This document shows positions 1 to 37,700 of a DNA stretch of 64,000 nt, in pieces. Every line of letters starts with the position of its first letter. The first letter of the stretch is position 1. The translations under genes and the position numbers were made by a program. The notes under the pieces were generated by a model that saw only the letters and a list, made by a program, of their open reading frames with translations, was not told the origin of the DNA and did not search any database. The DNA lies in IMG/VR virus record IMGVR_UViG_3300047548_000491, positions 35,914 through 99,913 of that record; one strand, 5' to 3'. The stretch is from a virus.

Positions 1-11
1 GGTGGTTATAA
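1..11 (+). CDS. 3' end of an upstream LRW-family gene (partial)
   Basis: Only the last codons are inside the window: the frame reads (R)-Trp-Leu-stop, with the TAA at 9-11 sharing its last base with the ATG of the next gene. This is the same ending (Arg-Trp-X-stop) and the same stop/start overlap seen through the following array, so the array very probably begins before this window. Nothing else of the gene can be seen. Confidence 0.5.
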
Positions 12-265
12 TGGAACAAGGTAGCTTTACATATAAAACAACTAATTACTATGGTAGTCAACGAAAGATTCACATCGTATCTTGGAAAGGTAAGGGTGAA
101 GTTGACGGGGATGAAATCCGAAAGTGGTGTATTGAAAACTTCGGAAATCCAGGTTATCAGGAAGAACATTCTCAAGCTCGATGGCTAGATGATATTAAAG
201 ATTCGGGTGAAATCTATCTGTGTAAAGATGAAGATTTGACCTTTTTCTTACTCAAGTGGACATGA
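11..265 (+). CDS. small LRW-family array protein 1
   Basis: An 84-residue protein of unknown function, first complete member of the array. It has the two family marks: a helix-like block with Lys-Trp-Cys and Phe-Gly (residues 38-45, KWCIENFG) and an end of the form acidic-Asp-x-x-Phe-Phe-Leu-Leu-Lys-Trp-Thr. I chose the ATG at 11 rather than the GTG at 2 because it overlaps the upstream stop and lies six bases after GGTGG at 1-5, which can act as ribosome binding site. It overlaps the next gene by 4 bases. No signal peptide or membrane segment is visible, so it is probably a soluble cytoplasmic protein. Confidence 0.8.
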   Translation: MEQGSFTYKTTNYYGSQRKIHIVSWKGKGEVDGDEIRKWCIENFGNPGYQEEHSQARWLDDIKDSGEIYLCKDEDLTFFLLKWT

Positions 266-471
266 TGTACGATGATTTGACCCATAGGGTATTTCTAAAA
301 TGTCCAACTACAGACACAGATACAGTTGACAGGTGGTGTTACGAACATTTTGGTGAACAGGGTGACAAATGGGATGCTTGGTTCGCAGATGATAGTCTCT
401 GGAATTATGACCAAATTTATGCTTTCGTTAACCACGAAGATGCAGTACTTTTTACTCTAACTTGGGTATGA
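262..471 (+). CDS. small LRW-family array protein 2
   Basis: A 69-residue protein of unknown function. The family block DRWCYEHFG is at about residues 23-31 and the end is EDAVLFTLTWV, so the usual Leu-Arg-Trp has become Leu-Thr-Trp. The middle is rich in Trp and Asp. Either ATG 262 (ATGA overlap with the upstream stop) or ATG 265 could be the start; the AAGTGG at 254-259 suits both. It ends in an ATGA overlap with gene 3. Soluble, acidic. Confidence 0.78.
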   Translation: MMYDDLTHRVFLKCPTTDTDTVDRWCYEHFGEQGDKWDAWFADDSLWNYDQIYAFVNHEDAVLFTLTWV

Positions 472-701
472 GAAGATTACATTTTGATGGCTCTACTTGG
501 CATGATACCAAACCCGGTTGGCATGAAATTGAATTGAATTTGAACGGTCAACCAAAACGCTATCGTGAAATACTAGAATGGCTGTATAATACTATAGACA
601 AGCCGGAAAGGCATTGTAGGTGGTTCCAAACGTCTGTTGGAATCAAAATTAAATTTAGGTACGAACGAGATTTTATTATCGCAACATTGAGGTGGACATG
701 A
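468..701 (+). CDS. small LRW-family array protein 3 (divergent)
   Basis: A 77-residue protein of unknown function. The first family block is degenerate (EILEWLYNTI, with Leu in place of Cys), but the end is typical: ERDFIIATLRWT. The ATG at 468 overlaps the upstream stop as ATGA. Its last codons TTG-AGG-TGG contain GAGGTG, complementary to the 16S rRNA tail, five to ten bases before the next ATG. The last codons therefore seem to serve both as protein code and as ribosome binding site for the following gene. Confidence 0.76.
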   Translation: MRRLHFDGSTWHDTKPGWHEIELNLNGQPKRYREILEWLYNTIDKPERHCRWFQTSVGIKIKFRYERDFIIATLRWT

Positions 702-1051
702 GAGTAGGTGTTTGGTATCGTACAGAATTACAACAACCCCCTAAGTCAGGTTACTACCTTAGCTACAGAGGATGGGGTATCGCTGGCAAGGCAGATGACG
801 ACAGCGATTGGGGTTATGTCTATTACGATAAGAAAATAAATGAGTGGCGTGATTATCAAAATGTTAGCAGTAGCTATGCTATTGTCTATTACTGGACTGA
901 CGCTACGCCTGATGATTGGGTAAATCAAGACCCACCCGGTGTCACATTACATAAAGTAAAAGAAGAACACAATGTAGCACTGGAAGATGCGTGGAAGAAA
1001 GTTCAGGAGGCAATCGACCAGTACAACATGATTAAAGAGTTGGTGCGATGA
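698..1051 (+). CDS. DUF551-like small protein inside the array
   Basis: A 117-residue protein that does not carry the LRW ending. The layout of an early Trp, a PP-x-SGYYL stretch, a Trp/Tyr-rich middle with WGYVYYD, then YYWTDATPDDW and a Pro-Pro near the end resembles DUF551-type phage proteins (function unknown). The C-terminal 35 residues look like a charged helix. It starts in an ATGA overlap with gene 3, after the GAGGTGG of that gene, and ends in an ATGA overlap with the next gene, so it is translated within the array. Family assignment is by pattern only and is uncertain. Confidence 0.6.
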   Translation: MRVGVWYRTELQQPPKSGYYLSYRGWGIAGKADDDSDWGYVYYDKKINEWRDYQNVSSSYAIVYYWTDATPDDWVNQDPPGVTLHKVKEEHNVALEDAWKKVQEAIDQYNMIKELVR

Positions 1052-1422
1052 CAATACAATTACACGACTATCAATTGTGCGTTTTAGAACACTTAAAGGG
1101 ATGGAAGCCGGGCGAAATGATGCTTATCTCTACTCCTAGACAAACTGGTAAAACTTATCTCAATCAATTATTCGGTAAAATGAGTAACAGACAAATTTTT
1201 ATGATGGGACCAGAACCTAAGTATAAATTCAGTCGTGCCAACTGGTATCAAGCAGAATTTGACTGGCGAAAGTATGATGAAGTTGAAGAATGGTGCGAAC
1301 AACAGTTTGGGCCGCACCCACAGAGACCAGATGCGTGGAGTCGCTGGTGGCATAAGTTTGAGAATAGCATTCTGTTCCGTGACGAAAAAGACTATGTATT
1401 GTTCATGTTGAGGTGGTCGTGA
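1048..1422 (+). CDS. P-loop fragment fused to an LRW-family domain
   Basis: A 124-residue protein with two parts. Residues 1-65 contain LHDYQ followed by a Walker A-like stretch STPRQTGKT (29-36), which resembles the start of the ATPase of large terminases of the gp17 type (T4 has SRQLGKT) or of a helicase. Residues 66-124 are a normal array domain with EEWCEQQFG (80-88) and DEKDYVLFMLRWS at the end. No Walker B, sensor or nuclease region follows, so it cannot be a full ATPase. It may be a recombination product between a terminase-like gene and an array gene. Start by ATGA overlap; the stop shares one base with the next ATG. Confidence 0.75.
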   Translation: MTIQLHDYQLCVLEHLKGWKPGEMMLISTPRQTGKTYLNQLFGKMSNRQIFMMGPEPKYKFSRANWYQAEFDWRKYDEVEEWCEQQFGPHPQRPDAWSRWWHKFENSILFRDEKDYVLFMLRWS

Positions 1423-1664
1423 TGTTTATTCACACATACCAACAACAGGAGGATTGGAGAGATCCCGTACCCTGGTTTGTTGCTGCATTTACGACACCTA
1501 AGGAAAATCGTAAAGAGATTACCAAATGGTGTTACAAAACTTTTGGTGCCCCTAGTATGAATCATCTTACTAAACAGATTCGTTGGAAAGATAGTATTCA
1601 ATACGGTGAAATATATTTCAGTAATCAAAAAGACCTGGAGTGGTTTGTACTGAGGTGGTCATGA
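1422..1664 (+). CDS. small LRW-family array protein 5
   Basis: An 80-residue protein of unknown function, one of the most typical members: TKWCYKTFGAP in the middle, a Trp-rich link with GEIYF, and NQKDLEWFVLRWS at the end. The ATG at 1422 shares one base with the upstream TGA (TGATG) and lies after GAGGTGG in the last codons of the gene before. It ends in an ATGA overlap. The predicted order strand-helix-strand-strand-helix would fit a small ferredoxin-like fold, but that is inference. Confidence 0.8.
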   Translation: MFIHTYQQQEDWRDPVPWFVAAFTTPKENRKEITKWCYKTFGAPSMNHLTKQIRWKDSIQYGEIYFSNQKDLEWFVLRWS

Positions 1665-1867
1665 CTATGCACAAAGTTGTTTATGCTCAAACTACAGATG
1701 GCACACTGTCTGCGTATCAGCGTAGCTATAAAGACCACCTAGTAGACGAATGGCTTAAAGAATATTGTAAAGGCCCTTACTATCATAACCCGGGCTGGAC
1801 TACAGAAAAGTTTATTGAGTTTGAACGCAATGAAGATGCGTTTTGGTTTGCGTTAAGGTGGTGTTGA
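1661..1867 (+). CDS. small LRW-family array protein 6
   Basis: A 68-residue protein of unknown function. VDEWLKEYC replaces the usual EWC block, and the end is NEDAFWFALRWC. ATG 1661 gives the ATGA overlap with the upstream stop, and ATG 1667 is a second possibility. The last codons contain AAGGTGG, again placed as a ribosome binding site for the next gene, whose ATG shares one base with this TGA. Confidence 0.78.
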   Translation: MTMHKVVYAQTTDGTLSAYQRSYKDHLVDEWLKEYCKGPYYHNPGWTTEKFIEFERNEDAFWFALRWC

Positions 1868-2109
1868 TGAATAACATTTCAGTTCATAATCTTATCGACA
1901 ATCATATTATCAACTATCTTAGAGAGATTGATAAGCCCAGTAGAACATATTGGCCCTATCTAATTCAGCTAAAATCTTGGGCTGACGTAAGCCCTGCTGA
2001 AAGATTCTGCTATACCCACTTCAAGAGTCGAAACTGGAGAAATATCAGCGCCGATTTTTATTTCAAACATAAAGAAGATTATGAATGGTTTATGTTAAGG
2101 TGGTCTTGA
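1867..2109 (+). CDS. small LRW-family array protein 7
   Basis: An 80-residue protein of unknown function. It has an N-terminal extension of about 35 residues before ERFCYTHFK, then DFYFKHKEDYEWFMLRWS, the canonical ending. TGATG overlap at both ends. The variable N-terminal part compared with its neighbours suggests that only the C-terminal 45 or so residues form the conserved core of this family. Confidence 0.8.
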   Translation: MNNISVHNLIDNHIINYLREIDKPSRTYWPYLIQLKSWADVSPAERFCYTHFKSRNWRNISADFYFKHKEDYEWFMLRWS

Positions 2110-2288
2110 TGGAAACAAATATTGTATATAGAGCTATGGCAGCAGGCAACTGGGATGAAAAAGTCGAATGGTGCAGAGAAAACTTGTATCCTGGAGGACA
2201 CTATGAACCAAAATGGTATATGCGTTATCCTTGGATAGAATTTGATGATGAAAAAGAATATATCTGGTTCAAGTTGAGGTGGGAATGA
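2109..2288 (+). CDS. small LRW-family array protein 8
   Basis: A 59-residue protein of unknown function, the shortest complete member seen in the array. It keeps VEWCRENLY near residues 18-26 and DEKEYIWFKLRWE at the end, so it may define the minimal domain. TGATG overlap upstream, ATGA overlap downstream. The last codons TTG-AGG-TGG carry GAGGTGG just before the next start. Confidence 0.8.
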   Translation: METNIVYRAMAAGNWDEKVEWCRENLYPGGHYEPKWYMRYPWIEFDDEKEYIWFKLRWE

Positions 2289-2485
2289 GCCTAATTGACG
2301 ATATCGATGATTTGATGTGGCCAGTATTTGTCAAGTTTGATAAAGCATTGGTTCCTGACGAATGGTACGAACTAGATTGCTGGTGTAATCAGCAGTTTGG
2401 TAAAGATGGTTGGTGGCTTGAGAAAGGTGTCATGCGTCTTAGAAAAGAAGAACATGCTACAATATTCTTACTAAGATGGGGTTAA
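2285..2485 (+). CDS. small LRW-family array protein 9
   Basis: A 66-residue protein of unknown function with LDCWCNQQFG and EEHATIFLLRWG. The Trp-Trp-Leu stretch between them matches the Trp-rich linker of other members. ATGA overlap with the upstream stop. Its LRW codons are CTA-AGA-TGG, without a good ribosome binding site. The next gene appears to start at the ATG inside this sequence, ten bases before this stop, so the junction differs from the rest. Confidence 0.77.
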   Translation: MSLIDDIDDLMWPVFVKFDKALVPDEWYELDCWCNQQFGKDGWWLEKGVMRLRKEEHATIFLLRWG

Positions 2486-2685
2486 TAGTTACAAAGTACA
2501 TTTATGAAAATTTTGATACCGACGCCGCGGTAGAGTGGGCCATAGAAAATTGTCCTAGTTTTGAAAAGTACATGATAATAGAACTAGACTGGGAAGAAAA
2601 AGAAGATTTGGGTTGTTGGTTTAAATTTGAGGTATATTTTGGTGACGAAAAAGATGCAATGTTTTATTCATTGAGGTGGGCGTAA
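2476..2685 (+). CDS. small LRW-family array protein 10
   Basis: A 69-residue acidic protein of unknown function with VEWAIENC (Cys moved downstream), a VYFGDEKDA stretch and an FYSLRWA ending. The only ATG in frame near the upstream stop is 2476, giving a 10-base overlap; no clear ribosome binding site precedes it, so translation may depend on coupling. It ends with TAA directly followed by the TTG of the next gene, after GAGGTGG in its last codons. Confidence 0.75.
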   Translation: MGLIVTKYIYENFDTDAAVEWAIENCPSFEKYMIIELDWEEKEDLGCWFKFEVYFGDEKDAMFYSLRWA

Positions 2686-2904
2686 TTGATTGAAGTGACA
2701 TTAGAAGATAAATTACCTAGTGAGTTTTTAGAAATTGTTAGAGAAATTAAAGACAAAGGGTATGTTCAGGGAACTGACTTTGACTTTGCTTACCATCCAC
2801 CCAAATTTGATAACTTTTCAGGGGATGCAGTGTATAATAGATGCGTCATATTCAAATTTTATAAAGAAGAAATTGCAACATGGTTCAACCTAAAGTATCT
2901 TTGA
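2686..2904 (+). CDS. divergent LRW-array protein 11 (TTG start)
   Basis: A 72-residue acidic protein of unknown function. The frame opens right after the upstream TAA with TTG, six bases after GGTGG, so TTG is the likely start. The family marks are weak: no WC block, and the end is EEIATWFNLKYL. The lost LRW codons mean that it also lacks the ribosome binding site that other members supply to the next gene, although the TGATG overlap is kept. Likely a decayed or strongly diverged copy. Confidence 0.65.
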   Translation: MIEVTLEDKLPSEFLEIVREIKDKGYVQGTDFDFAYHPPKFDNFSGDAVYNRCVIFKFYKEEIATWFNLKYL

Positions 2905-3152
2905 TGGATGAAATAATCAAAGAAAAATTAGAAGAAATGGAAAAAAGTATAGACAACGATGTGATGAGGTCTTGTCTAGTCGAAGGTGGATGGACAGAAA
3001 TTAAATTTCATTATCACAGTGGTAAACACGCAGTTGATGTGTTAGAATGGTGCGGTGAAACGTTTAAAGAAAATCAATGGTCGAGACTGAATGGTTACTT
3101 TGTATTTCGCAAGAAAAAAGATGCTGAATGGTTTATGTTAAGGTGGCTATGA
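2904..3152 (+). CDS. small LRW-family array protein 12
   Basis: An 82-residue protein of unknown function with a charged helical N-terminus (residues 1-25), LEWCGETFKE, and FRKKKDAEWFMLRWL at the end. The ATG at 2904 shares one base with the upstream TGA and has no visible Shine-Dalgarno, so translation is probably coupled. Its own last codons TTA-AGG-TGG lie just before the next ATG (ATGA overlap). Confidence 0.78.
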   Translation: MDEIIKEKLEEMEKSIDNDVMRSCLVEGGWTEIKFHYHSGKHAVDVLEWCGETFKENQWSRLNGYFVFRKKKDAEWFMLRWL

Positions 3153-3490
3153 AAATCATATGGGGAAGAAGCATAGGATGGAATATTTCCTATAATAATT
3201 ACAGAAGCATACTGAAATACGCCGGCGATAATAATTTCGATATCACCCATAAAAATATTAAAATGGAATATACTATAATAGAAAACGGTGCAGACTGCTA
3301 TCCCTGGATGGAATACTTTGCGATATTACCTAGAAAAACAGTGACAGGTAAACGCATATGGTGGCAGAAAGCATATAAGCGTAAAGTATGGGTAGTGTGG
3401 GGCATAGGCTTTCACATGGAACCACATGTACAATATGCAACAGCCTTTGATTTGTTAATGTATGACAACAACTATAACACTAAAAGGTAA
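3149..3490 (+). CDS. Trp-rich protein, paralogue of the protein at 22695-22919
   Basis: A 113-residue protein of unknown function without the LRW ending. Its C-terminal half (PWMEYFAILPR, GKRIWWQKAYKR, then TAFDLLM) lines up with the protein at 22695-22919 (PWEQWFAWYPV, GNRIWLKTVYRR, then VFDILK), so the two are paralogues 19 kb apart. It starts by an ATGA overlap with array protein 12 and overlaps the next gene by 29 bases. Basic and aromatic-rich with no membrane segment. Function not recognisable. Confidence 0.7.
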   Translation: MKIIWGRSIGWNISYNNYRSILKYAGDNNFDITHKNIKMEYTIIENGADCYPWMEYFAILPRKTVTGKRIWWQKAYKRKVWVVWGIGFHMEPHVQYATAFDLLMYDNNYNTKR

Positions 3491-3683
3491 TTTAACTGGT
3501 GAACAAGAACAATGGCTCGCAAAGAATATCGGGCCTAGGATGCATTACATTCACAATAGTATAGGTGGTCAAGGTTGGATAGCAAGACACGAATGGAAAC
3601 CTGGAATGGTTTCTAAGTATTGGAATCTTTCTATTGAAGATGACCGTCTCGCTACATTTTTTGTACTGATGTTCCCGCAATGA
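3462..3683 (+). CDS. distant array protein 13
   Basis: A 73-residue protein of unknown function. EQWLAKNIGP and IEDDRLATFFVLMFPQ are placed where array proteins have EWCxxxFG and EDAxWFxLRW, so it may be a distant relative that lost the consensus. The ATG at 3462 lies 29 bases before the upstream stop. It ends in an ATGA overlap with the next gene. Confidence 0.65.
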   Translation: MTTTITLKGNLTGEQEQWLAKNIGPRMHYIHNSIGGQGWIARHEWKPGMVSKYWNLSIEDDRLATFFVLMFPQ

Positions 3684-4024
3684 TAGAAAATCATCCTTTT
3701 AAAATTACAGAGTACGACAGGTTTGTAACTGTGACTTGGCCTGCTTTTCATGACATACGAGACAAAATGACTAAAGTAAAATTAGTTGAGGCAGCATTTC
3801 AGCAATCTAAAGCAGTTGAGGTCGGGTTTGTATTAGAACTCAATAACAAAGAATATGATATCATGTGGATCAATTCTTTTCTTAGTTTAACTCAAAATGA
3901 TTATGTGCATTATGTACAAGACATGTATGTGATTAGAGGTGTTGCTTATAGAGATAAGCAAGACGCAGAAAAGTTATATAATTGGTTAGAAGGAAAGTAT
4001 ATATGGCAGCTATTAAAGGACTAG
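3680..4024 (+). CDS. hypothetical array-end protein
   Basis: A 114-residue protein of unknown function. The end (YRDKQDAEKLYNWLEGKY and on) again has an acidic-Asp-Ala helix, as in the family, but no LRW. The N-terminal half has strand-like segments (FVTVTWPAF, VGFVLEL). ATGA overlap upstream. It overlaps the next gene by 22 bases, and that start is served by AAGGAAAG inside this gene. Confidence 0.65.
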   Translation: MIENHPFKITEYDRFVTVTWPAFHDIRDKMTKVKLVEAAFQQSKAVEVGFVLELNNKEYDIMWINSFLSLTQNDYVHYVQDMYVIRGVAYRDKQDAEKLYNWLEGKYIWQLLKD

Positions 4025-4257
4025 GAAGTTTTCAACCAATGATTGAGTATGTTGATGTGGTTCGTAATAACACGGATTACACCTCAAAGAAAACGTATAT
4101 CCCTAAGCCCAATGATTCAGATGAACACATTAGATGGTGCCGCAGAAATTTAGGAGCTAGGGGTGATGGTTGGGACTTTGCAGGTTCTGGTAAAACGTTG
4201 ACTATTTTTATTTGGTCACACAAATTGCAATTTATGTATGAAATGTGGCAACAATAG
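4003..4257 (+). CDS. distant array protein 14
   Basis: An 84-residue protein of unknown function and last member of the array. IRWCRRNLGARG matches the WC-xxx-FG block well, while the end (QFMYEMWQQ) has lost LRW. An AAGGAAAG at about 3991-3998 precedes the ATG at 4003. Its TAG shares bases with the likely GTG start of the sugar kinase gene, so the accessory genes that follow are probably translated from the same mRNA. Confidence 0.7.
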   Translation: MAAIKGLGSFQPMIEYVDVVRNNTDYTSKKTYIPKPNDSDEHIRWCRRNLGARGDGWDFAGSGKTLTIFIWSHKLQFMYEMWQQ

Positions 4258-5081
4258 TGAAGAATAAAATAGGTATTGATATCGGCAAAACCAAAACTGA
4301 ATGCTGTGTCATTTCACTTAACAACGAAGTGTTGTTTCGTGAAAGATTACCTACAGGTACCGTCTTTAATGAAATAAAAGAATTGTATCAAAAGGCTATC
4401 AAATACACAGATACAACGAATCACACCATCGGTGTGTGTATGCCGGGAAAATTAAGCAACGTTAGTGGGTTAATGATTAATTCTAGTATTGAATTTTTGA
4501 ATAATACTGACTTTGTAAAAAATCTACAACTTGTTTTAAACCATGATTTTAAAACAGCAAATGATTCACAATGTTTTGCATTAGCAGAAGCATTACTAGG
4601 GGCAGGGAAAAATTATAATATTGTTTATGGCTTAATATTGGGCACTGGCGTGGGCGGGGGCATCGTAATAAACGGTAGAAGTACACAAAGCGAGTTTGGT
4701 CACACTAGTCTAGATAGTTCAAACAAAATACTATGTAGATGTAAGAGAATTGGTTGCGTTGAAACATGGCTCAGTGGCTCAGGTGTCGATGTATGGGCAA
4801 AAGAATTGTTAGGGATCGATATGTCTACTGTAGACTATATGAAAGATCCCAAAGTAAAGCAGATATACTTTGAAAAGTTTGGATTAGCTCTATCTAATTT
4901 AATTCAAACAGTTAATCCAGAATGTATTGTAATCGGTGGTGGAATCAGTAATAATAGTGAAGTATATTCCGTAGGTGTAGAGCGCATCAAACAAAAGTTG
5001 TTTGATGATGAATTGTCTATACCTGTAGTCAAAGCAGAACTAGGAGATAGTGCAGGCGTTATAGGTGCTGCACTTTTATAA
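4257..5081 (+). CDS. ROK-family sugar kinase
   Basis: A kinase of the ROK family (glucokinase, fructokinase, N-acetylhexosamine kinase), which uses ATP to phosphorylate a free hexose. Visible motifs in order: IGIDIGKTKTE (first phosphate loop), GLILGTGVGGGIVINGR (second phosphate loop), EFGHTSLD, the CRCKRIGCVE zinc-binding pattern of ROK proteins, and VIGGGIS near the end. Length (274) is close to the lower end for ROK kinases. GTG 4257 (TAGTG overlap) puts the first motif at the usual distance from the start; GTG 4245 is possible. The following epimerase and cytidylyltransferase genes suggest a sugar-activation route; the sugar is unknown. Confidence 0.85.
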   Translation: MKNKIGIDIGKTKTECCVISLNNEVLFRERLPTGTVFNEIKELYQKAIKYTDTTNHTIGVCMPGKLSNVSGLMINSSIEFLNNTDFVKNLQLVLNHDFKTANDSQCFALAEALLGAGKNYNIVYGLILGTGVGGGIVINGRSTQSEFGHTSLDSSNKILCRCKRIGCVETWLSGSGVDVWAKELLGIDMSTVDYMKDPKVKQIYFEKFGLALSNLIQTVNPECIVIGGGISNNSEVYSVGVERIKQKLFDDELSIPVVKAELGDSAGVIGAALL

Positions 5082-5083
5082 TT

Positions 5084-5653
5084 ATGGCAAATGATATAAT
5101 GATTGACCTTGAAACACTTGACACGACACCGTATTGTGTAATTCTCACAATCGGTGCAGTCAGGTTCGATCCTAGAGGTCAAGGAGTGGTTGAACGATTA
5201 GAACTACGTCCTACGATTGAGGATCAAACAGAAATTCATAATAGAATAATTGATGATGACACATTACGGTGGTGGTCTACACAGAGCCCTGATGCACTTG
5301 AAGAAGCATTGGGAGACAGGGGACGTACATCATTTAGAGAGTGCATGGAGGCCCTTTATAAGTTTTGTTGGAACCGTCGTGCTGTTTGGGCTAATGGTTC
5401 TGCATTTGATATCGTAGCATGTGAAACAGGTATGCGTCAGACATTGACTGATTATCCTAATCCTATTCCGTGGCCATTCTGGACAGTTAGAGATACACGA
5501 ACACTGTATGAAGTAGCAGGTGTTAGTTTGAAGGATAAGAAATACGGTAGCAAAACAACGCACAAAGCAGTCGAAGATGCAGAACACCAAGCGATTGTTG
5601 TGCAAGACGCATACATGAAATTGATGAAAGCAGGATTGGCAACACCGCGATGA
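5084..5653 (+). CDS. DEDD 3'-5' exonuclease, Rv2179c-like
   Basis: A 189-residue exonuclease of the DEDD superfamily, of the type called Rv2179c-like (Pfam PF16473 by pattern). IMIDLETLDT near the start gives the first Asp-Glu pair, LRWWSTQSPDA is typical of this subfamily, NGSAFD supplies the next Asp, and THKAVEDAEHQA the last His and Asp. Such enzymes remove nucleotides from RNA or single-stranded DNA ends with two metal ions. It starts 3 bases after the kinase gene and overlaps the epimerase gene by 4 bases. The substrate cannot be told from sequence. Confidence 0.85.
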   Translation: MANDIMIDLETLDTTPYCVILTIGAVRFDPRGQGVVERLELRPTIEDQTEIHNRIIDDDTLRWWSTQSPDALEEALGDRGRTSFRECMEALYKFCWNRRAVWANGSAFDIVACETGMRQTLTDYPNPIPWPFWTVRDTRTLYEVAGVSLKDKKYGSKTTHKAVEDAEHQAIVVQDAYMKLMKAGLATPR

Positions 5654-6111
5654 AAACATACGGTGAATTATTACCTGGCTTAAAGATCATTGAACATACA
5701 AAGTACAATGATAATAGAGGTAATTTTTGTGAAACATGGAAGATAACAAATGATGGGATGCGAGGATCGTTCCGTCAATTGAACACTGCAACATCTAAAC
5801 AAAATGTCATTCGTGGTATGCACAGACAAGACCAATCTAAGTTGATTATGCCTGTTTATGGTAGAATATTTGACGTTGCACTAGAACCTGAAACTGGTAA
5901 GTGGTTTGCGATTGAATTAGACAACACCTCAGGTTTATTAGTACCACCAGAATACGCACACGGTTACATGACATTAACTGAAAACACGATAGTGCAGTAT
6001 ATTGTAGACATGCCCTATAATAAAGACGTTGAAGAAAATTTCAAATGGGATCAATATAACATCGCTTGGCCAATCGTTGTTACACCCATACTATCAGAGA
6101 AAGACAAATGA
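5650..6111 (+). CDS. RmlC-like dTDP-sugar 3,5-epimerase family protein
   Basis: A 153-residue cupin related to dTDP-4-dehydrorhamnose 3,5-epimerase. It has the family features DNRGNFCETW, FRQLNTATS, VIRGMHRQDQ (with the catalytic-type His), VYGRIFDVALEPETGKW, then VPPEYAHGY. Such enzymes invert carbons of a nucleotide-linked keto sugar. It is shorter than RmlC (about 180 residues), so it may act on a different sugar. ATGA overlaps on both sides tie it to the exonuclease and the cytidylyltransferase, and the pair with the latter suggests work on an activated sugar. Confidence 0.82.
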   Translation: MKTYGELLPGLKIIEHTKYNDNRGNFCETWKITNDGMRGSFRQLNTATSKQNVIRGMHRQDQSKLIMPVYGRIFDVALEPETGKWFAIELDNTSGLLVPPEYAHGYMTLTENTIVQYIVDMPYNKDVEENFKWDQYNIAWPIVVTPILSEKDK

Positions 6112-6599
6112 AAGTAGGATTTAATTGTTCAAGTTTTGATTTGTTTCATGCTGGGCATGTTACCATGCTTAAAATGGAAAAAAAGTTATGTGACTATCTA
6201 ATTGTTGCACTTCAAGTTGATCCTACTATTGATAGGCCTGGCATCAAAAATAAACCTACACAATCTGTCTATGAACGATACGTACAATTGCAGTCATGTA
6301 AATATGTAGACGAGATACTAGTATATTCTACCGAATATGACCTACTTCAATTATTGATGACCCAAAAGATCGACATTCGTTTTTTGAGTGAAGAATATCT
6401 TAACAGAGATTTCACGGGCAAGCAATATTGCATTCAAAATGGAATCGAGTTATACTATCACAAACGTGAACATGATTATAGTTCAACCGAGTTGCGTAAC
6501 AGAATATATATGTTAGAAAAACTCAAGCGTGAAACAACTCAACCAGAAACAGAGATACCGCAACACAGTCCTGAATTGGTTAAAAAGAATGAAATTTAA
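6108..6599 (+). CDS. cytidylyltransferase-like protein (HxGH family)
   Basis: A 163-residue nucleotidylyltransferase of the kind represented by glycerol-3-phosphate cytidylyltransferase. FDLFHAGHVTML holds the HxGH motif and YSSTELRNRI takes the place of the ISSTxxR motif near the end. It should join a phosphorylated substrate to a nucleotide, releasing pyrophosphate. Start by ATGA overlap with the epimerase gene. The last 25 residues are a Pro/Glu/Gln-rich tail beyond the domain. With the kinase and epimerase it could form a short nucleotide-sugar route. Confidence 0.85.
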   Translation: MKVGFNCSSFDLFHAGHVTMLKMEKKLCDYLIVALQVDPTIDRPGIKNKPTQSVYERYVQLQSCKYVDEILVYSTEYDLLQLLMTQKIDIRFLSEEYLNRDFTGKQYCIQNGIELYYHKREHDYSSTELRNRIYMLEKLKRETTQPETEIPQHSPELVKKNEI

Positions 6600-7170
6600 T
6601 AGTGACATTGACATTGATTTTAGTAACCGTGATGATATACTAAAGCATATCAGGCACATACCTGCAGCCATGCGTAATGTTAATCCAATTCGTAAACATG
6701 CGACTGGAATCTATGTGACAGACATTCCATATGATGCAGTGAATGACATGGCTAACATTGATTATGTAGAAGCAGAGGATCGTGGATATATTAAGTTAGA
6801 TATGCTTAATGTGCATGTATATAATCAAGTCAAAGACGAAATGCACTTAATCGAGTTGATGCGTGAGCCTGACTGGAATAAGTTAAAAGATCGAGAATTT
6901 GTTGAAAAACTGATACACTTGTCAAATCACTACAATAGTCTTTGCAAAATGCCAGAACCAGTTGACAGTATTCCTAGACTAGCTATGTTTTTGGCTATTA
7001 TTCGTCCAGGAAAAAAGCATTTAATTGGTCTGCCCTGGAAAGAAGTAGCTAAAACTGTATGGGAAAAAGGAAGTGACGGGTATAGCTTCAAAAAAGCACA
7101 TGCAATTGGGTATTCTTGGTTAGTAGCAGTTCATATGAACTTGCTTACAGAATCTTCTTCACAAGGGTAA
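6589..7170 (+). CDS. DnaE-like palm half with catalytic aspartates
   Basis: A 193-residue protein that matches pieces of the bacterial C-family replicase (DnaE). SDIDIDFSNRDDILKHI (5-21) corresponds to the DnaE stretch beginning PDFDVDF with two catalytic Asp. RKHATGIYVTD (35-45) corresponds to the KHAGGVVIAP region. YIKLDMLNV (67-75) corresponds to VKFDFLGL with the third catalytic Asp. IIRPGKK fits the RPG motif and YSFKKAHAIGYSWL fits the YGFNKSHxxAYxL motif. The polymerase start before SDIDIDF, including the GRGS motif, is missing here and is found in the gene at 42326-42832. The ATG at 6589 overlaps the upstream gene by 11 bases; a longer reading frame from 6529 exists. Activity is unknown. 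Confidence 0.8.
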   Translation: MKFNSDIDIDFSNRDDILKHIRHIPAAMRNVNPIRKHATGIYVTDIPYDAVNDMANIDYVEAEDRGYIKLDMLNVHVYNQVKDEMHLIELMREPDWNKLKDREFVEKLIHLSNHYNSLCKMPEPVDSIPRLAMFLAIIRPGKKHLIGLPWKEVAKTVWEKGSDGYSFKKAHAIGYSWLVAVHMNLLTESSSQG

Positions 7171-7525
7171 TTGATTTTCTTTTAGATTTCTTTTTACTGA
7201 GTTCAAGCATACTACATATAGGTCCGTGTAATACTGTCAAACTCTTATTGTTAAATGTTCTTAAGTAGGGCTTAAAGATAGCCCAGTCTTCTTTTAGAAA
7301 CATATTAATGGGTACTAATCTGTTTGATTCCCACCACCAAACATCCCCTAATAACAAAAATTGCTCTCTTAACTCTTGTTGTGCTATAGATCCATAATCA
7401 TATATAGTGGTGACTAAATCATCACGGTTTTGTACTATACCAACATAATCTTGGCCAGCATAGGAACAAACGGTGATGAATGGGTGATTTTCTGTTAGTT
7501 TTTTAAAGAAATCGTTATGAAGCAT
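7145..7525 (-). CDS. hypothetical late protein on the minus strand
   Basis: A 126-residue protein of unknown function, the only minus-strand gene in the first 16 kb. It has a Trp-Trp-Trp stretch (GDVWWWES) and a very basic C-terminus (KKKSKRKS). ATG 7525 follows a late-type GATAAATA on the same strand by about 17 bases, which supports it being a real late gene. TTG 7534 is an alternative start. It overlaps the 3' end of the polymerase-like gene tail to tail by 26 bases. The family was not recognised. Confidence 0.65.
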   Translation of the reverse strand: MLHNDFFKKLTENHPFITVCSYAGQDYVGIVQNRDDLVTTIYDYGSIAQQELREQFLLLGDVWWWESNRLVPINMFLKEDWAIFKPYLRTFNNKSLTVLHGPICSMLELSKKKSKRKSITLVKKIL

Positions 7526-7542
7526 AAAAATCAATTACCAAA

Positions 7543-7550
7543 TATTTATC
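7543..7550 (-). promoter_or_regulatory. late promoter octamer (minus)
   Basis: Read on the minus strand this is GATAAATA, the late octamer found before many genes of this window, and it lies 17 bases before the ATG of the minus-strand gene ending at 7145. It is back to back with the plus-strand octamer at 7575. Confidence 0.6.
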
Positions 7551-7574
7551 AAATCTCGTTACCCAATATATTTT

Positions 7575-7582
7575 TATAAATA
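7575..7582 (+). promoter_or_regulatory. late promoter TATAAATA
   Basis: Exact copy of the T4 late promoter octamer TATAAATA, 17 bases before the GTG start at 7600. It forms a divergent late pair with the minus-strand octamer at 7543-7550. Confidence 0.75.
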
Positions 7583-7599
7583 TATAAAAGGAGCAAACT

Positions 7600-8370
7600 G
7601 TGTATTCAACAAGTGTTTATTTTTATATCCCAAGACAAACTGTTGTGGTTTACAGTGGCAATTCTACTAGGAGGTATGCGATTGTGTATGCTAAGAATCT
7701 AACATTGAACAAGGGCGTGGATAATAAAATCCAATTTCAGTTCTTAAACCAAGAACAAAAACCATTTGATATTACAGGTAAGAGTATTACCTTTAGACTA
7801 TTAGATGAAAGTGGAAGTGAAATCTTATTGCAAAAAGGAGTATTACCTACACTAGCTTTAAAGGGAATATGTGAATTAACAACTACTGCAAGCGAAATTG
7901 AAGATATTAACCCACAGTATTGTTCATATAGTTTAGAAATCTCTGATAATGATTATGATCTTCCGGTATTTGTTAGTTCAGAAGCCTCTGCAAGAGGGGC
8001 AGTTAGTGTTGTAGACAGTGTGTTTCCTAGTTTTGTTCCTGCAATAAATGTAGAAATCCCCACACATTTGTTGCCTAATACTATCGCTAATACAAGCACT
8101 GTAAATTATTCAACTAGCATTATTAACACCAAAGATAATCCTATGCTAAGTATTCAGTGCTATCTTGACAGCTATAGTGGTACTGTCGAGATATATGGAT
8201 CCACTATTTATAGCCCGGATTTGTCTGCAATAGGATATCAAATATCCAATAATGGTCCTTATACCACTGAATCTGGTTCTAAAGGCTATAGTATTTCAGG
8301 ATATCACCCGTATGTGCAATTAAAATTTACCAGCACTGAGGGTAATGTCACCAAAGTATTAGCCAGATAA
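7600..8370 (+). CDS. putative virion protein, possible baseplate/fibre accessory
   Basis: A 256-residue protein that starts with GTG, chosen because AAAGGAG lies at 7588-7594 and the late octamer upstream. The N-terminal half has a beta-rich layout (IQFQFLNQEQ, ITFRLLDESG, SYSLEISDN) like baseplate upper-protein or Ig-like modules of phage tails, and the C-terminal part is Ser/Thr/Tyr-rich as in virion adhesins. No catalytic motif. It stands alone between a late promoter and the early promoter of the primase gene. Specific family not recognised. Confidence 0.6.
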   Translation: MYSTSVYFYIPRQTVVVYSGNSTRRYAIVYAKNLTLNKGVDNKIQFQFLNQEQKPFDITGKSITFRLLDESGSEILLQKGVLPTLALKGICELTTTASEIEDINPQYCSYSLEISDNDYDLPVFVSSEASARGAVSVVDSVFPSFVPAINVEIPTHLLPNTIANTSTVNYSTSIINTKDNPMLSIQCYLDSYSGTVEIYGSTIYSPDLSAIGYQISNNGPYTTESGSKGYSISGYHPYVQLKFTSTEGNVTKVLAR

Positions 8371-8372
8371 TA

Positions 8373-8401
8373 TTGATTTATTCTAGTAAGAAGTATACAA
8401 T
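8373..8401 (+). promoter_or_regulatory. sigma70-like promoter of the primase-helicase pair
   Basis: TTGATT at 8373-8378 and TACAAT at 8396-8401 are 17 bases apart, a good match to a host sigma70 promoter. The primase ATG is only 6 bases after the -10 box, so transcription should begin at or next to the start codon. Confidence 0.72.
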
Positions 8402-8407
8402 ATAAGA

Positions 8408-9379
8408 ATGTTCGACATTCTAGGTTTAATTCCGGGTAAAAAGAAGCATACAAACAGCGGGTGGACTAGCTTTAACGCAGTCTGCTGTAGCCATCGCGGC
8501 CATAATCCAGACAGAAGAATGCGAGGCGGGCTACGTATTGATGGAAATAATTGGGTGATGCATTGCTTCAACTGCGGATATAGTTGTAGCTTTATGCTCG
8601 GTAGGAGTATAAATGCAAAAACCAGACAGTTCCTTATTTGGTGCGGAGTAGATAGTGAACAAGTACAAAAATGGAGTTTAGAAAGCCTTCAGAAAAAAGA
8701 TTTGCTTCAACTATACCTAGAACAGAAAAAACGCTTTACGATTAAATTTAAATCTAAGAGGCTGCCGGACAATTCTGAACAAATTACTGAACAAGGTACT
8801 CATAAGTTCTATGTAGATTATTTGAAAAAGCGCAAAATAGACTATGAAAAATATGTTCTCTATTGCAACCCTTCCGGTGGTCAACGTAAAAAATATGGTA
8901 TTATAATTCCCTACACATATAAAGGAAAAATAGTAGGACACACTACAAGGTTTCTGGATAACAAAAGTCCTAAATATATCAATGAACAACAACAAGGCTA
9001 TGTCTTTAATATTGACATGCAGAAACCAGAATGGAATGTATGCATTGTAACTGAAGGTATTTTTGATGCAATGGCAATCGATGGTGTTGCACTGATGCAT
9101 GACGATATTAGTAATGAGCAAGCAATACTACTAAGTACACTAAACAGAAAAATTATTGTAGTGCCGGATTTTGACAAAACTGGTTTGAAAATTACAGATA
9201 GGGCGTTAGAACTTGGATATCATGTCAGCTTACCCAACTGGGGTCCTGATATTAAAGACGTTAACGATGCAGTAGTAAAGTATGGTAAGCTCCCTACATT
9301 ATTGGCAATACTTGAAAACGCAACGATGAGCAAGATAAAAATTGAAATGAGGAAGAAACAGATTGCTAAAGGATTATAA
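8408..9379 (+). CDS. 61: DNA primase, gp61-like
   Basis: A 323-residue primase of the T4 gp61 type, which makes RNA primers together with the helicase encoded next. Residues 25-60 form a zinc-finger region with CCSHRGH and HCFNCGYS. The TOPRIM part holds VTEGIFDAMA (about residues 215-224), VVPDFDKTG with the metal-binding Asp pair, and DVNDAV. The length agrees with gp61 (about 340). It lies directly after a sigma70-like promoter, has no visible ribosome binding site, and overlaps the helicase gene by 17 bases, so the two are expressed together early. Confidence 0.92.
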   Translation: MFDILGLIPGKKKHTNSGWTSFNAVCCSHRGHNPDRRMRGGLRIDGNNWVMHCFNCGYSCSFMLGRSINAKTRQFLIWCGVDSEQVQKWSLESLQKKDLLQLYLEQKKRFTIKFKSKRLPDNSEQITEQGTHKFYVDYLKKRKIDYEKYVLYCNPSGGQRKKYGIIIPYTYKGKIVGHTTRFLDNKSPKYINEQQQGYVFNIDMQKPEWNVCIVTEGIFDAMAIDGVALMHDDISNEQAILLSTLNRKIIVVPDFDKTGLKITDRALELGYHVSLPNWGPDIKDVNDAVVKYGKLPTLLAILENATMSKIKIEMRKKQIAKGL

Positions 9380-15637: not shown

Positions 15638-15713
15638 ACACTCTTAATTCTGAGAGTTTATGCGGTCCCCGCCGCGTAGTGGCTAGAACCCACAACTAAC
15701 AAGGAGAAAACAA
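15638..15713 (+). promoter_or_regulatory. GC-rich structured 5' leader
   Basis: Most late leaders here are 10 to 30 bases and AT-rich; this one is about 75 bases and contains a GC-rich core (15661-15693). Possible hairpins are GCGG/CCGC (15662-15672) and GTGG/CCAC (15679-15693), ahead of the AAGGAG at 15701. It could stabilise the mRNA or control translation. Confidence 0.4.
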
Positions 15714-16574
15714 ATGGGACGCCCAATTAAAGCAAATAAATGGAATGGATCAACCAACATCGACTATGGTTATCCTAACGACGGTACTACCGATAATGGC
15801 TACGATACAGATAAACCAGGTGTAGTAATCGGAGACCCTGAGGATAGATGGGAAATTGTACAATCATATGTATGTATTAAAGTAAATGGATTAGGAACTA
15901 TCACTACTGATTCCACTGCCACCACAGTTACCGGTACAGGTACAAACTTTACTGGACTACTTTTAGGCGGTGCTAAACTTTACACATCTGCAGGAGTGTA
16001 TATCGGTACCGTTGATTCAGTAACCGATGACGGTGAACTAGAATTAGCAGCAAACGCAGAAGTGGATGTTACTGACAGTGCCTTCTACTATGGTGATGCA
16101 GACAGTGAAGGTATAATTCTTCGTCAAAAAGGTAAAAGAAAGTTTTTAGTAGCTAGAAGGGACAATATCCAAGATGAATATATCGTAGCAGGCAATACAT
16201 ATTTCATTGATACTGTCGGTAATACTGATTGGGAAGCATTAGGAGCCGGAGTAGGCGCAGGGTACGGAAAAGTGTTTACTGCTACTGCAAACGGTACAGG
16301 TCTTGGAACAGACGGCTCAGTGTACAATGTAGGTATATGCTCATTAGTCGATACCACTGATTCAACTGAATTAGAGCCCGGAGAAATGTACATTTCTTAC
16401 TACGATCCAGTACAAGACGATACTTATGCTGCAAGTGAACTTACTAACCATTGGTTAAGACCGTGGGGTGCTCAAGCTTCCGCAACCAAGTATGTTGCAC
16501 AATTGACTGACTCTAGTTCAACACCTGATCCAGCTACAGGATATACAAGTGTTGACGTTAATGATTGGGATTAA
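15714..16574 (+). CDS. putative abundant virion protein
   Basis: A 286-residue Gly/Thr/Asp/Ala-rich acidic protein starting MGRPIKANKW. The middle has beta-type repeats (TTVTGTGTNFTG, VFTATANGTGLGTDGSVY) and RQKGKRKFLVARRDN is the one basic patch. A strong ribosome binding site (AAGGAG), a dedicated late promoter with structured leader and a dedicated terminator suggest high expression, as for a head decoration or tail surface protein. No family recognised. Confidence 0.65.
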   Translation: MGRPIKANKWNGSTNIDYGYPNDGTTDNGYDTDKPGVVIGDPEDRWEIVQSYVCIKVNGLGTITTDSTATTVTGTGTNFTGLLLGGAKLYTSAGVYIGTVDSVTDDGELELAANAEVDVTDSAFYYGDADSEGIILRQKGKRKFLVARRDNIQDEYIVAGNTYFIDTVGNTDWEALGAGVGAGYGKVFTATANGTGLGTDGSVYNVGICSLVDTTDSTELEPGEMYISYYDPVQDDTYAASELTNHWLRPWGAQASATKYVAQLTDSSSTPDPATGYTSVDVNDWD

Positions 16575-22472: not shown

Positions 22473-22698
22473 AGTGCATCCTTGGGACGAAAACCTGACG
22501 TTGTTCACCCCCGAAGAATTTGACCAATTGCCTGATGGGACTGAATTATATTCAATCATGCAGGGTGATAAACCTGTAATCAAAGGTAAAGATGACATTG
22601 ACATGGATACACGATTCGGGCACATTGCTTATGGAGTTAATGATCCATGGAATCATCCCTTGAAGGACTTGTTCTTGATGTTCAAACTCAAGCAATGA
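22432..22698 (+). CDS. small hypothetical protein
   Basis: An 88-residue acidic protein of unknown function. ATG 22432 is preferred because a perfect AGGAGG lies at about 22420-22425, inside the MazG gene. FTPEEFDQLPDGTELYSI and VIKGKDDIDMDTRFGHIAYG are the main blocks, reminiscent of small SH3-like beta proteins. It ends in an ATGA overlap with the next gene. Confidence 0.7.
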   Translation: MRSIQKIARPGTSKVHPWDENLTLFTPEEFDQLPDGTELYSIMQGDKPVIKGKDDIDMDTRFGHIAYGVNDPWNHPLKDLFLMFKLKQ

Positions 22699-22919
22699 AC
22701 TTCAGCCCAGCTCCCAAGTATCATACTTGGAACGATTATGTTGCGAGAAAGATTGTGAAATCTCCCTGGGAGCAGTGGTTTGCGTGGTATCCTGTCAAAG
22801 TTAATGGAAATCGAATCTGGTTAAAGACAGTATACCGCCGATGCATCAACACATATGTTGACATGGATAATTGGAAAAGATACGAATACGGTAATGTATT
22901 TGATATACTGAAAGACTAA
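22695..22919 (+). CDS. Trp-rich small protein, paralogue of the protein at 3149-3490
   Basis: A 74-residue protein of unknown function. PWEQWFAWYPVKVNGNRIW, then YRRCINTYVD and YEYGNVFDILKD, repeat the order PW-xx-(W/Y)FA, G-x-RIW, YxR, FD(I/L)L of the 113-residue protein in the array region. It starts in an ATGA overlap and is the last gene of the early operon, ending in the hairpin at 22919. Confidence 0.7.
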   Translation: MNFSPAPKYHTWNDYVARKIVKSPWEQWFAWYPVKVNGNRIWLKTVYRRCINTYVDMDNWKRYEYGNVFDILKD

Positions 22920-34708: not shown

Positions 34709-37700
34709 ATGGCTCAACAATACATAGACTTTGGTACATTTCCAAACGATCCATCGGCTGATCCGATTCGATCAGCATTTCAGAAAATAAACGAAAACTT
34801 CAATGAACTTTACGGTACTTTTTTCTCGTCCGGTGTTACATCTATTACCACTACTGGTGGTATTACAGCTCCGGCAGGAGGAACAGGGGACGTATTAATT
34901 GAGGGTAATTTCCCTAGAATTCAGATTATTACAGGTAGTAATTTAACAGTTGGAGCAGGTGCACCTAACACTACCCAGTCAGCAAATATCACTACCTTTT
35001 CTGTTCCGTTTTATTTAGATTTAGCTAATTCGATTAATACACAATCAGCTACTTTTACAACAGGTGTAACTACATCTAATCTTAGCGTAGGCAACGTAGT
35101 AACTAGCTCATTAATTCCCAATGCATCTACCGGTCAATTAGGAAATAGTACCAATAGATGGGGTAATTTATTTGTTACTTCTAATATAAATTTAGGAGCA
35201 GCAGCCAATAGTCAAACGATTAGATCAAACACTTCAGGTGTAATTCTAACTAATCTTTTTGTAACATCAAACACTGTAATAGGTAATGCTAACATCACCG
35301 GATTAGTTACTGCAGGCAATGCTACTGTGACAGGTCTAACGACTACAAATAATTTAACAGTAACTGGAAATTTGATCGGTAACTTAATTCCTGATCAAGA
35401 CGAAGTTTATAATTTAGGTAGCCCCACACGTAAGTTTAAAGAATTATTTCTTGCTGCGAATACTTTGACATTGGGTGCAGTTACAATATCAGCAGACTCA
35501 AATAGCATTATTGTTCCTAATTTATCAGTCACTGACACAATCAGTGTAGGTACGATAACTGCAGGATTTGTCGACGGTATAATAACTGCAACATCACAAC
35601 CATTAATTACTAGTTTGGGCGCATTAAGCAACTTGACTGTTGCTGGTTGTGTAGCGATTGGTAATACATTAATTGATTCTAACGGGGCAATCACAGTAGG
35701 TAGTACAGTTATTGATCCTTCCGGTAACATTATACTACCGGCTAATGGTACAATTACTGGAACAGTTATTACTCCACCGGGCGGAACAGTTAGTGCTCCG
35801 GGTTCTAATACACAAATCTTATTCAATGATGACGGTAACTTAGCAGCAGTTCCAGGACTACAATTCAACAAAGTAACTAGTTTATTAAGTATTTCAGGTA
35901 ATGTAGCAGGAGGAAACTTAGTATCTTCAGGTGCTCTATCAGTTACTGGTAACGGTAGTGTAGGCGGCACATTTAGTGCTACTGGAAATGTGAACGCTGG
36001 CAATTTAATTACCTTAGGTGTTTTAAGTGCTAGCGGCAATATTTCAGGCGGTAATATTTCAACTAATGGATTCTTACAAGTAGTAGGCAATGCTAGTTTG
36101 GGCAATATTACAACAACTAGAATAGATGGTACTATAGTTAGTGTATCGGGTAATATTTCAGGCGCTAACTTAATTGCTAGCGGTATAATGCGAGTAGACG
36201 GTAACGCAAACGTAGGTAACCTAACTACTAGTGGTTTAGTGTCAGCCGCAACAATAAATGCATCAGGAAATGTGTCTGCTGGTAATATTAGTGTTTCCGG
36301 ATCACTAGCAGTTGACACATTATCAGGAAATAACTTAAGTTCTAGTGGCAACTTAACTGTTACCGGTAATTCTTCTTTAGCAAATGCAATAGCTACAAGT
36401 CTATCTGCTATAGGTAATATTTCAAGTAGTAATTTAAATATTACCGGTAATTCTTCTTTAGCAAATGCAATAGCTACAAGTCTATCTGCTATAGGTAATA
36501 TTTCAAGTAGTAACTTAATCATCACTGGTAATTCTACACTAGCTAATGCATTGGCTGCGAGTCTTGCAGCTACGGGTAATGTTTCAGGTGGAAACATATT
36601 GACTGGTGGACTAATTAATGCTACTGGTAATATATTAGGTGGTAACTTATCCACCACTGGTGTAGTTTCTGCTACAGGTAATGTTTCAGGTGGCAATATA
36701 ACAACTACAGGGTTAATCACTGCGAATGGCACCATCGTCGGCGGCAATCTATCCACTGCTGGTGTAGTTTCTGCTACAGGTAATGTTTCAGGTGGAAACT
36801 TAACTACAAACGGATTAATTGTAGCTACAGGCAATGTCTCAGGTGGTAACTTATCTACTACAGGTGTAGTCTCTGCTACAGGTAATATATTAGGTGGTAA
36901 CTTATCTACTACAGGTGTAGTCTCTGCTACAGGTAATATATTAGGTGGTAACATTAATGCTAACGGTAGCGTTACAGGTAACTTGTTTAGTGCTAATTTC
37001 TTCAGCGGTGATGGAAACAGCATAACAAACTTGAATGCGTTAAATGCTAAGAATAAGATTGTGCCAACTGGTTTATTAATTGGTTCAGGAACAGCAACTA
37101 TAACTTTCTCTACGCAATCTTTTGCCCCGTTTGATATTGGACAAACAGTAAATGTTTCAAACATTTTACCAAGTGGATTAAACGGTTCACAGACCATTAC
37201 GTTCTGCAACGCAGACACATTAACATTTAGTACTGCACTAACCTCAAACGTTGGATTTGTGCCAGGTACATCAATAGTATCAGGTGACATTAAAGTTTCA
37301 AGTGCTATAAGTGCTGCTTCGGCAAATACTGCTAATTCTGCGAATACTGCTAACTCAGCAACGATTGCTGGACAAGTTACAGGTGCAACACAAGGAAACA
37401 TCACAAGTGTAGGAACTTTAGTAGGATTGACTGTTGCTCCAACTGGATCAATAACCGGTGCTAATACTATTTCAGGTAATTTTATTTCAGGTAATTTTGT
37501 TCTTGCAAGTGTTACTAGTGGCATCGTTGCTTCTGGTACTACTCAAAGCACCGCATATCCGTTGATTAGTCAATATAATGTTGTTTCTACTTCTAGTACA
37601 GGAACTGCTGATGGTGTACGTTTACCAACAGCTACAGTGGGTATGCAAGTTATTATCATCAATAATACTGCAAACAGTGTTAAAGTTTATCCAGCATCAA

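Follow-up and report, generated by a model that had tools for sequence, protein, structure and literature searches.

A tandem array of small overlapping genes in a large phage, with a conserved protein tail that may double as the ribosome site of the next gene

The DNA analysed here (the window, 64,000 nucleotides) comprises positions 35914-99913 of a 99,913-base virus record (IMGVR_UViG_3300047548_000491), and its first 4257 nucleotides hold an array of 17 small genes, packed and mostly joined by -4 or -1 overlaps. An earlier note, made from the letters alone, had described this array as a tandem family of small proteins ending in Leu-Arg-Trp (LRW). Window genes are designated below by w and the position of their start within the window, and the loci and stretches compared by L-numbers, L016 being the window's own phage. 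This is a large, freshwater-type phage. An IMG/VR contig of 260,148 bases agrees fully with the window record in those of its retrieved stretches that overlap it, so the phage probably has at least that size, and its large terminase is nearest to those of the PA5oct group of jumbo phages (50% identity).

Family membership was assessed by leave-one-out searches, in which each copy was removed from the profile in turn and then searched for. Eleven window seeds (w11, w262, w468, w1048, w1422, w1661, w1867, w2109, w2285, w2476 and w2904) were recovered in this way at E 2.1e-13 to 8.3e-5, and the best of 69 other window proteins reached only E 2.2. Two genes that matched the seed profile weakly, w2686 (E 0.23) and w3462 (E 1.2), joined the family after iteration over the relatives; w4003 remained weak (E 0.21, seed profile). 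The candidates w698, w3149 and w3680 found no support as members with either the seed or the iterated profile, and the first of them matches phrog_23093, a group of unknown function, at E 6e-5. By the iterated profile the window holds thirteen copies, in line with the "at least twelve" of the earlier note, whose "about 17" is right for the genes of the array and too high for the copies (Table 1). The array also extends beyond the window start, as had been suspected: further copies lie upstream at L006 16782-17925 (record G000, 34781-35924), two of them recovered by leave-one-out (E 6.7e-4 and 2.4e-7), one (u17683) weak in that search (E 0.12) and accepted by the iterated profile, and one more found at E 0.0046 with the seed profile.

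Table 1. Genes of the array and one example junction, in window coordinates (aa, amino acids; pLDDT, predicted local distance difference test score)
Position	Strand	Feature	Basis or remark
11..265	+	family copy, 84 aa, MEQGSF..FLLKWT	leave-one-out profile; orthologues in most arrays compared
262..471	+	family copy, 69 aa, ..FTLTWV; -4 overlap	leave-one-out profile
468..701	+	family copy, 77 aa, ..ATLRWT; junction TTGAGGTGGACATGA	leave-one-out profile
687..701	+	example junction, Leu-Arg-Trp-Thr-stop = TTG AGG TGG ACA TGA	Shine-Dalgarno; next ATG overlaps stop
698..1051	+	non-family gene in array, 117 aa, ends ELVR; group 14 in relatives	
1048..1422	+	family copy, 124 aa, N-terminal P-loop-like ISTPRQTGKT; junction TTGAGGTGGTCGTGATG	leave-one-out profile
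1422..1664	+	family copy, 80 aa, AlphaFold2 pLDDT 86.8; junction CTGAGGTGGTCATGA	leave-one-out profile
1661..1867	+	family copy, 68 aa, ..FALRWC; junction TTAAGGTGGTGTTGATG	leave-one-out profile
1867..2109	+	family copy, 80 aa, ..FMLRWS; junction TTAAGGTGGTCTTGATG	leave-one-out profile
2109..2288	+	family copy, 59 aa, ..FKLRWE; array position differs among relatives	leave-one-out profile
2285..2485	+	family copy, 66 aa, ..FLLRWG; next start within AGATGG	leave-one-out profile
2476..2685	+	family copy, 69 aa, ..YSLRWA	leave-one-out profile
2686..2904	+	diverged family copy, 72 aa, ..FNLKYL, group 7, TTG start	iterated profile only
2904..3152	+	family copy, 82 aa, ..FMLRWL, AlphaFold2 pLDDT 94.8; junction TTAAGGTGGCTATGA	leave-one-out profile
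3149..3490	+	non-family gene in array, group 11	
3462..3683	+	diverged family copy, 73 aa, ..FFVLMFPQ, group 9	iterated profile only
3680..4024	+	non-family gene, group 16	
4003..4257	+	weak candidate copy, 84 aa, ..YEMWQQ, array's last gene	weak profile match

The window copies share 20-41% identity with the first copy in the window alignment, and phenylalanine, tryptophan and tyrosine together make up 18.8% of the residues in twelve of them versus 9.6% in other window proteins. As the earlier note had stated, N-terminal parts vary and the C-terminal core is conserved across copies. Wider searches were done with two profiles that have no row in common, A2 (72 rows, hand-picked among the copies of the window and of L008-L026) and A3 (118 of 140 references). 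At E<=0.01, A2 gave four PHROGs and two Pfam families, each matching a single member (best E 0.0014), and at E<=0.001 A3 gave no PHROG and no NCBIfam match. A PADLOC scan of the 72 A2 members matched no model, and a PDB sequence search assigned no family. Since the library scans and the PDB search returned scattered weak matches only, a named known family was rejected, and the view that this is an undescribed small family holds for the libraries scanned. Comparison of window 1-5100 with GenBank phages by DNA similarity gave no match. A P-loop-like N-terminal stretch was observed in w1048-1422 (STPRQTGKT), L008 5594-6001 (AGRQSGKS) and L021 7732-8208 (SSGRQTGKS); that of w1048 drew only weak AAA and branch-migration-helicase matches (E 0.07 and 0.24), and a related copy, L012 3930-4205, is without it, which suggests a fused or swapped N-terminal part.

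AlphaFold2 models were obtained for w1422 (predicted template modelling score, pTM, 0.73; order E-E-H-E-E-H, with E for strand and H for helix) and w2904 (pTM 0.79; H-E-H-E-E-H), from input alignments that overlap only in w2904 and its orthologues. Both are predicted to have a common core E-H-E-E-H (beta-alpha-beta-beta-alpha), the preceding part being different in the two, so that the strand-helix-strand-strand-helix order proposed in the earlier note is correct for the core of either model. In the PDB, no structural match of either model reached E 0.001 (the best Foldseek hits had E 0.16 and 1.2), and structure comparison gave weak and mixed neighbours with best Z-scores of 5.8 and 4.7. In BFVD, the fold was matched by A0A6J7WGK8, A0A6J5KVW6 and A0A6J5T1G0 (E 5.6e-4 to 6.8e-4, probability 1.00, 24-28% identity); these uncharacterized proteins of uncultured Caudovirales phage, which bear no given name or function, are probably family members. 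The weak PDB neighbours include eIF1 (Foldseek E 0.16, probability 0.66), aIF1 (Z 4.7, root-mean-square deviation 2.8, 65 aligned) and RRM (Z up to 4.3), and a fold resembling eIF1/SUI1, KH-like and RRM domains could mean that the copies bind nucleic acids or act on translation. However, no PDB match reached the threshold for either model and the mean net charge of twelve window copies is -2.75 (other window proteins -4.5), which gives no hint of nucleic-acid binding, and we consider such a role quite unlikely.

For the analysis of the protein ends, relatives were gathered by protein searches of IMG/VR. After removal of repeats (L006, L007, L010, L011, L014, L015, L022 and L023 repeat other loci and were excluded from the order, junction-codon and alignment-end counts), 13 loci remained with 145 open reading frames (ORFs) by ORF count, of which 137 were retained by the gene caller. 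The LRW end, called fixed in the earlier note, is less strict than that: L[RK][WYF] ends 103 of the 137 copies, and LTW, LTCG, LLYQ and LMFPQ were found among the others. In 79 copies L[RK][WYF] is followed by a start at -4 or -1, and here the codons are far from random. The motif arginine is AGG in 58 of 68 coupled copies with arginine, compared with 62 of 537 arginines in the preceding parts of these genes and 7.3% of the 632 arginines of window genes that do not belong to the array; the motif leucine is TTG in 53 of the 79, against a background of 20.8%. These codons write GAGGTGG a few bases before the next ATG, that is, the Shine-Dalgarno sequence of the next start. Much of the "fixed" motif would thus be constant at the DNA level, because it serves as the Shine-Dalgarno of the following gene. 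In a second form of joint, seen in 12 copies whose next gene starts at -10, this start falls within the codons of the motif; 7 of the 12 have AGA TGG. Additional stretches were found by scanning IMG/VR for a DNA pattern, F-x-L-R-W plus an overlapping start. Their members that do not match the pattern have AGG at 116 of 169 arginine codons if the stop overlaps an ATG, coupling being read here from this overlap alone, and otherwise at 35 of 71. Promoter-like sites in window 1-8500 numbered 37 versus 34.0 in shuffles, in a scan blind to phage-specific promoters, and no terminator-like site was found on the plus strand before 7268.

The LRW end could instead be a conserved protein signal for folding or binding, the ribosome-site reading being incidental. 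In two alignments the F, L and W of the motif are indeed invariant or nearly so, and many copies of Sinorhizobium phage Phosso retain F-K-L-x-W or similar ends with codons other than AGG, in the ends printed. But the codon choice lies far off background, and where no Shine-Dalgarno is embedded the arginine is loose, with R in 4 of 16 Phosso ends versus 85 of 132 in the window clade (Fisher p 0.005); a pure protein signal therefore seems unlikely to us. From the codon bias and the loose arginine, it appears that F, L and W belong to the protein level, and that it is mainly the DNA role which explains the arginine and its codon. The motif would have come first and the ribosome site later.

The earlier note had compared the family with those that diversify by duplication against variable targets. 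We found no direct evidence of this, and pairs of orthologues rather show purifying selection: the median ratio of nonsynonymous to synonymous substitution rates (dN/dS) is 0.22 in 252 family pairs, compared with 0.125 in 147 others; as dS is high, these values are rough (pairs with dS >=3, <40 aligned codons or a length difference >35% were excluded). When the two parts were taken separately (excluding pairs with <55% identity or <45 codons), 150 pairs gave a ratio of 0.23 for the N-terminal part and 175 pairs one of 0.14 for the core, with no value above 1. Such low ratios indicate that the family genes are not junk and are kept under purifying selection, and they suggest that the variety stems from gain and loss of whole genes and from old divergence. 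A neutral passenger array, a store of ORFans without protein function, would suit the high turnover, and the small overlapping ORFs of the cyanophage S-PM2 "ORFanage" were lost in culture while plaques grew faster (PMC4503421). Against this stand the low dN/dS, on which neutral DNA was rejected, and the shared predicted fold, and we regard it as highly improbable.

Copy number varies when related phages are compared, as the earlier note had proposed to do. By ORF, L017 holds 20 copies, L016 17, L008, L009 and L021 15 each, L018 12, L024 11, L020 10, L012 9, L026 8, L025 7, L019 5 and L013 1, L012, L017 and L019 being cut by contig ends; 11 of the 13 loci thus have 7-20 copies. The lone copy of L013 (5968-6132) lies in a different setting, before genes that look radical-SAM-like by eye. 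Recurring flank groups enclose arrays of 7 (L025) to 17 (L016) copies, the neighbours of the METNIVYR gene differ among L016, L008 and L009, and the L026 array is reordered. With w2109 as query, the IMG/VR protein search returned a contig identical to the window's phage as its sole match. On the other side, groups 6, 8 and 9 are present in 9 of the 13 loci. This recurrence would suit a reading in which the copies assemble into one mixed complex, such as a ring or filament, the ratio of its subunits being set by tight coupling. Overlapping co-directed gene pairs are reported often to encode subunits of heteromeric complexes (PMC10666635), and the core fits ring-forming secretin domains middlingly (Z 4.0-4.7). 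The spread of 7-20 copies in the 11 fuller loci and the changed order argue against it. In addition, the electrospray ionization tandem mass spectrometry (ESI-MS/MS) note borne by 4 of the 13 other genes shown in the PA5oct record is absent from gp209, gp210 and gp237; this weighs weakly against a virion role, although small proteins readily escape such detection. A mixed complex seems rather unlikely to us.

We propose that the array consists of interchangeable gene cassettes. Each would encode a small accessory protein whose core is conserved and whose N-terminal part varies. The last codons of the cassette (Leu-Arg-Trp-x-stop, often TTG AGG TGG NNA TGA) would at the same time provide the Shine-Dalgarno for the following gene, which begins with an ATG overlapping the stop. 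As one joint differs little from another in its DNA, recombination from joint to joint could add, drop or swap a gene and leave frame and translation intact. Comparison of locus pairs at >=85% identity points in this direction. Of 37 in-array alignment ends (merged from 44), 19 lie <=20 nt from the end of a family gene, where 3.8 are expected and 2000 random placements gave 11 at most. Relative to L134, L130 has extra stretches of ~0.56 and ~0.44 kb at two places, flanked by two joint copies (coding-strand sequence GTTTATATTGAGGTGGTCATGA, with a single mismatch in one of them); at each place L134 has only one joint, which bears the outer flank of each L130 copy, with overlaps of 22 and 35 nt. 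Between L053 and L056, one member is swapped for a longer gene beginning at the joint (L056 6646-7782, reverse), which we take to be radical-SAM-like. Related phages gain, lose and swap whole genes, mostly at or near the joints, and use of joint homology by recombination would be the natural reading.

Several points weigh against this proposal. The remaining 18 of the 37 alignment ends are >20 nt from any family gene end, and the 37 come from few contig pairs, including the near-identical L056 and L082, with events often shown twice, and are non-independent. Any phage recombination is most readily tolerated at gene ends, and finding alignment ends at joints is thus no proof that exchange is driven by the joint sequence. 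The comparison of coupled with uncoupled copies, in which the motif arginine is AGG in 4 of 18, is biased in the 13 loci by start calls that favoured Shine-Dalgarno-like sequence, the contrasts with background being free of this bias. In the ends printed, many Phosso copies have no AGG joint, so the family can expand without it. The recurrence of groups 6, 8 and 9 fits a fixed role of these three better than a free panel, and as regards candidate protein targets, no copy has a known target or activity.

With these points taken into account, we still consider the cassette reading likely; it builds on what could be read here from the sequences, namely the family, the overlaps, the codon bias at the ribosome site, the purifying selection and the whole-gene turnover with many ends located at joints. 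As to the products, our best guess is a changeable panel of host-directed proteins, for take-over or counter-defence, possibly produced in coupled amounts by an operon next to replication genes. Their changeable content, small size and place among replication-type genes favour this, and we give it slightly less than an even chance. The combined statement, cassettes that encode such a host-directed panel, is held with moderate confidence. More tentatively, the array may represent an integrase-free cassette system, with tail-to-tail crossing over as the means by which large phages assemble, lose and rearrange operons of small effectors, the arginine of LRW being set by its role in the DNA joint.

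The family is not restricted to the relatives of the window. The pattern scan of IMG/VR gave at least 120 virus stretches. Among the 120 listed, 114 have at least one member and 86 three or more, with 587 members in total and at most 17 in a single stretch among the matches listed; after reduction of seven near-identical pairs the figures are 107 of 113, 83 and 566, and all these stretches were chosen by the pattern, so they are uninformative on how often members lack it. The identical pattern yielded at least 118 stretches of cellular genomes as controls, and among the 118 listed there was no member at E<0.01 by either of two profiles and no second pattern match. Of 17 isolate records searched with A3, four have members: Phosso, Atu_ph07, PA5oct and Paride. 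Phosso gave 47 matches at E<=1 and 32 at E<=0.001, and A2 concurs with 42 at E<=1. On the 469-kb record PV764938.1 they cluster near 3-14, 95-122, 166-177, 348-377, 405-408 and 451-461 kb, and in two stretches shown they fall in genes annotated hypothetical. For Atu_ph07 the A3 matches were 8 at E<=1 and 4 at E<=0.001. PA5oct and Paride had 3 each, of which one in PA5oct and two in Paride cross stops; A2 places the PA5oct match in gp237 without stops. A copy of PA5oct gp210 with >=99% identity is present in 11 Pseudomonas phage records. No A3 match was obtained, at E<=1, 0.1 or 10 depending on the search, for P-SSM2, HTVC008M, T4, GAP32, SNUABM_19, XacN1, KVP40, S-CRM01, phiKZ, G, PaBG, S-PM2 and 121Q. 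Single copies searched by tblastn in phage records gave E 1 or worse or nothing, apart from one weak Phosso match (E 0.4) that was later confirmed by the profiles, and a Phosso copy matched Phosso only.

Tandem arrays of paralogous genes were reported earlier from the very large phages G and 121Q, where the authors read them as duplication (PMC5646251; also in the review PMC13282480), and for phage G a lineage-specific expansion of ~35 zinc-ribbon copies is described (PMC7824862). The likeness is that of a tandem array of paralogues in a large phage; unlike those genes, the copies of the window array are far from "very similar", given their low identity to the first copy. A3 matched neither of the G and 121Q records at E<=10, in a search of the records in which the arrays' own genes were not looked up singly, and A2 gave nothing in G and one match in 121Q (E 0.041, with 4 stops inside) in the same search as the 42 of Phosso. 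The S-PM2 ORFanage, in which a T4-type phage has dozens of small unknown genes that overlap (PMC4503421), resembles the array in this respect; its 37 genes matched the family profiles at best at E 17 and 21. The arrays of G, 121Q and S-PM2 as the same family thus found no support in the profile searches. Start-associated sequences (SAS) of Cluster K mycobacteriophages are Shine-Dalgarno-bearing repeats beside the starts of many non-structural genes (PMC3203893), and they share with our joints a repeated DNA with a Shine-Dalgarno core a few bases before the start. The SAS have a 13-bp consensus, GGGATAGGAGCCC, whereas the AGG joints are built around GAGGTGGNCATGA (compared by eye, no scan with the SAS consensus being run), and the element described here is the translated tail of a protein family that overlaps the stop. 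Promoter-stem-loop (PeSL) cassettes mediate shuffling in T4-type phages (Arbiol 2010 and Comeau 2014, as cited in PMC4503421) and are likewise repeated regulatory DNA between shuffled genes, but what is repeated in our case is a ribosome site that lies within coding sequence. Coupled translation at ATGA overlaps is known as well (PMC6728339). In searches of the open-access literature, neither this family nor a conserved protein tail with a built-in ribosome site turned up, and the available parts of PMC11242549, PMC9723584 and PMC12619734 hold nothing on such arrays. Tandem arrays, Shine-Dalgarno repeats, PeSL shuffling and ATGA coupling are therefore known kinds, and the new element is a tail whose LRW would be largely written by needs of the DNA.

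If the proposed reading is correct, large phages would have a simple way to diversify small accessory genes quickly, with each newcomer still being translated. The searches open up a large unnamed protein family of several hundred copies, present also in isolates grown on laboratory hosts. They also call for some caution, since constraints on the DNA may lie behind a C-terminal peptide that is conserved among overlapping genes.

Concerning the surroundings, we take the genes before the array start to be a UvsW-like helicase and a clamp-loader small subunit, and those after its end to be kinase-like and then exonuclease-like. The kinase-like gene (window 4257-5081, ROK-type by eye), which stands between the array and the exonuclease-like gene, is ungrouped among the relatives compared; L008 and L025 carry another gene of ~322 codons beside the array. 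The genes 3149-3490 and 22647-22919, far apart in the window, resemble each other by eye (TGKRIWWQKAYKRKV versus NGNRIWLKTVYRRC). At window 15641-15716, on the plus strand, the Rfam freshwater-2 RNA (RF02980) was detected with 66 bits (gathering threshold 49.9) at the start of the gene 15714-16574.

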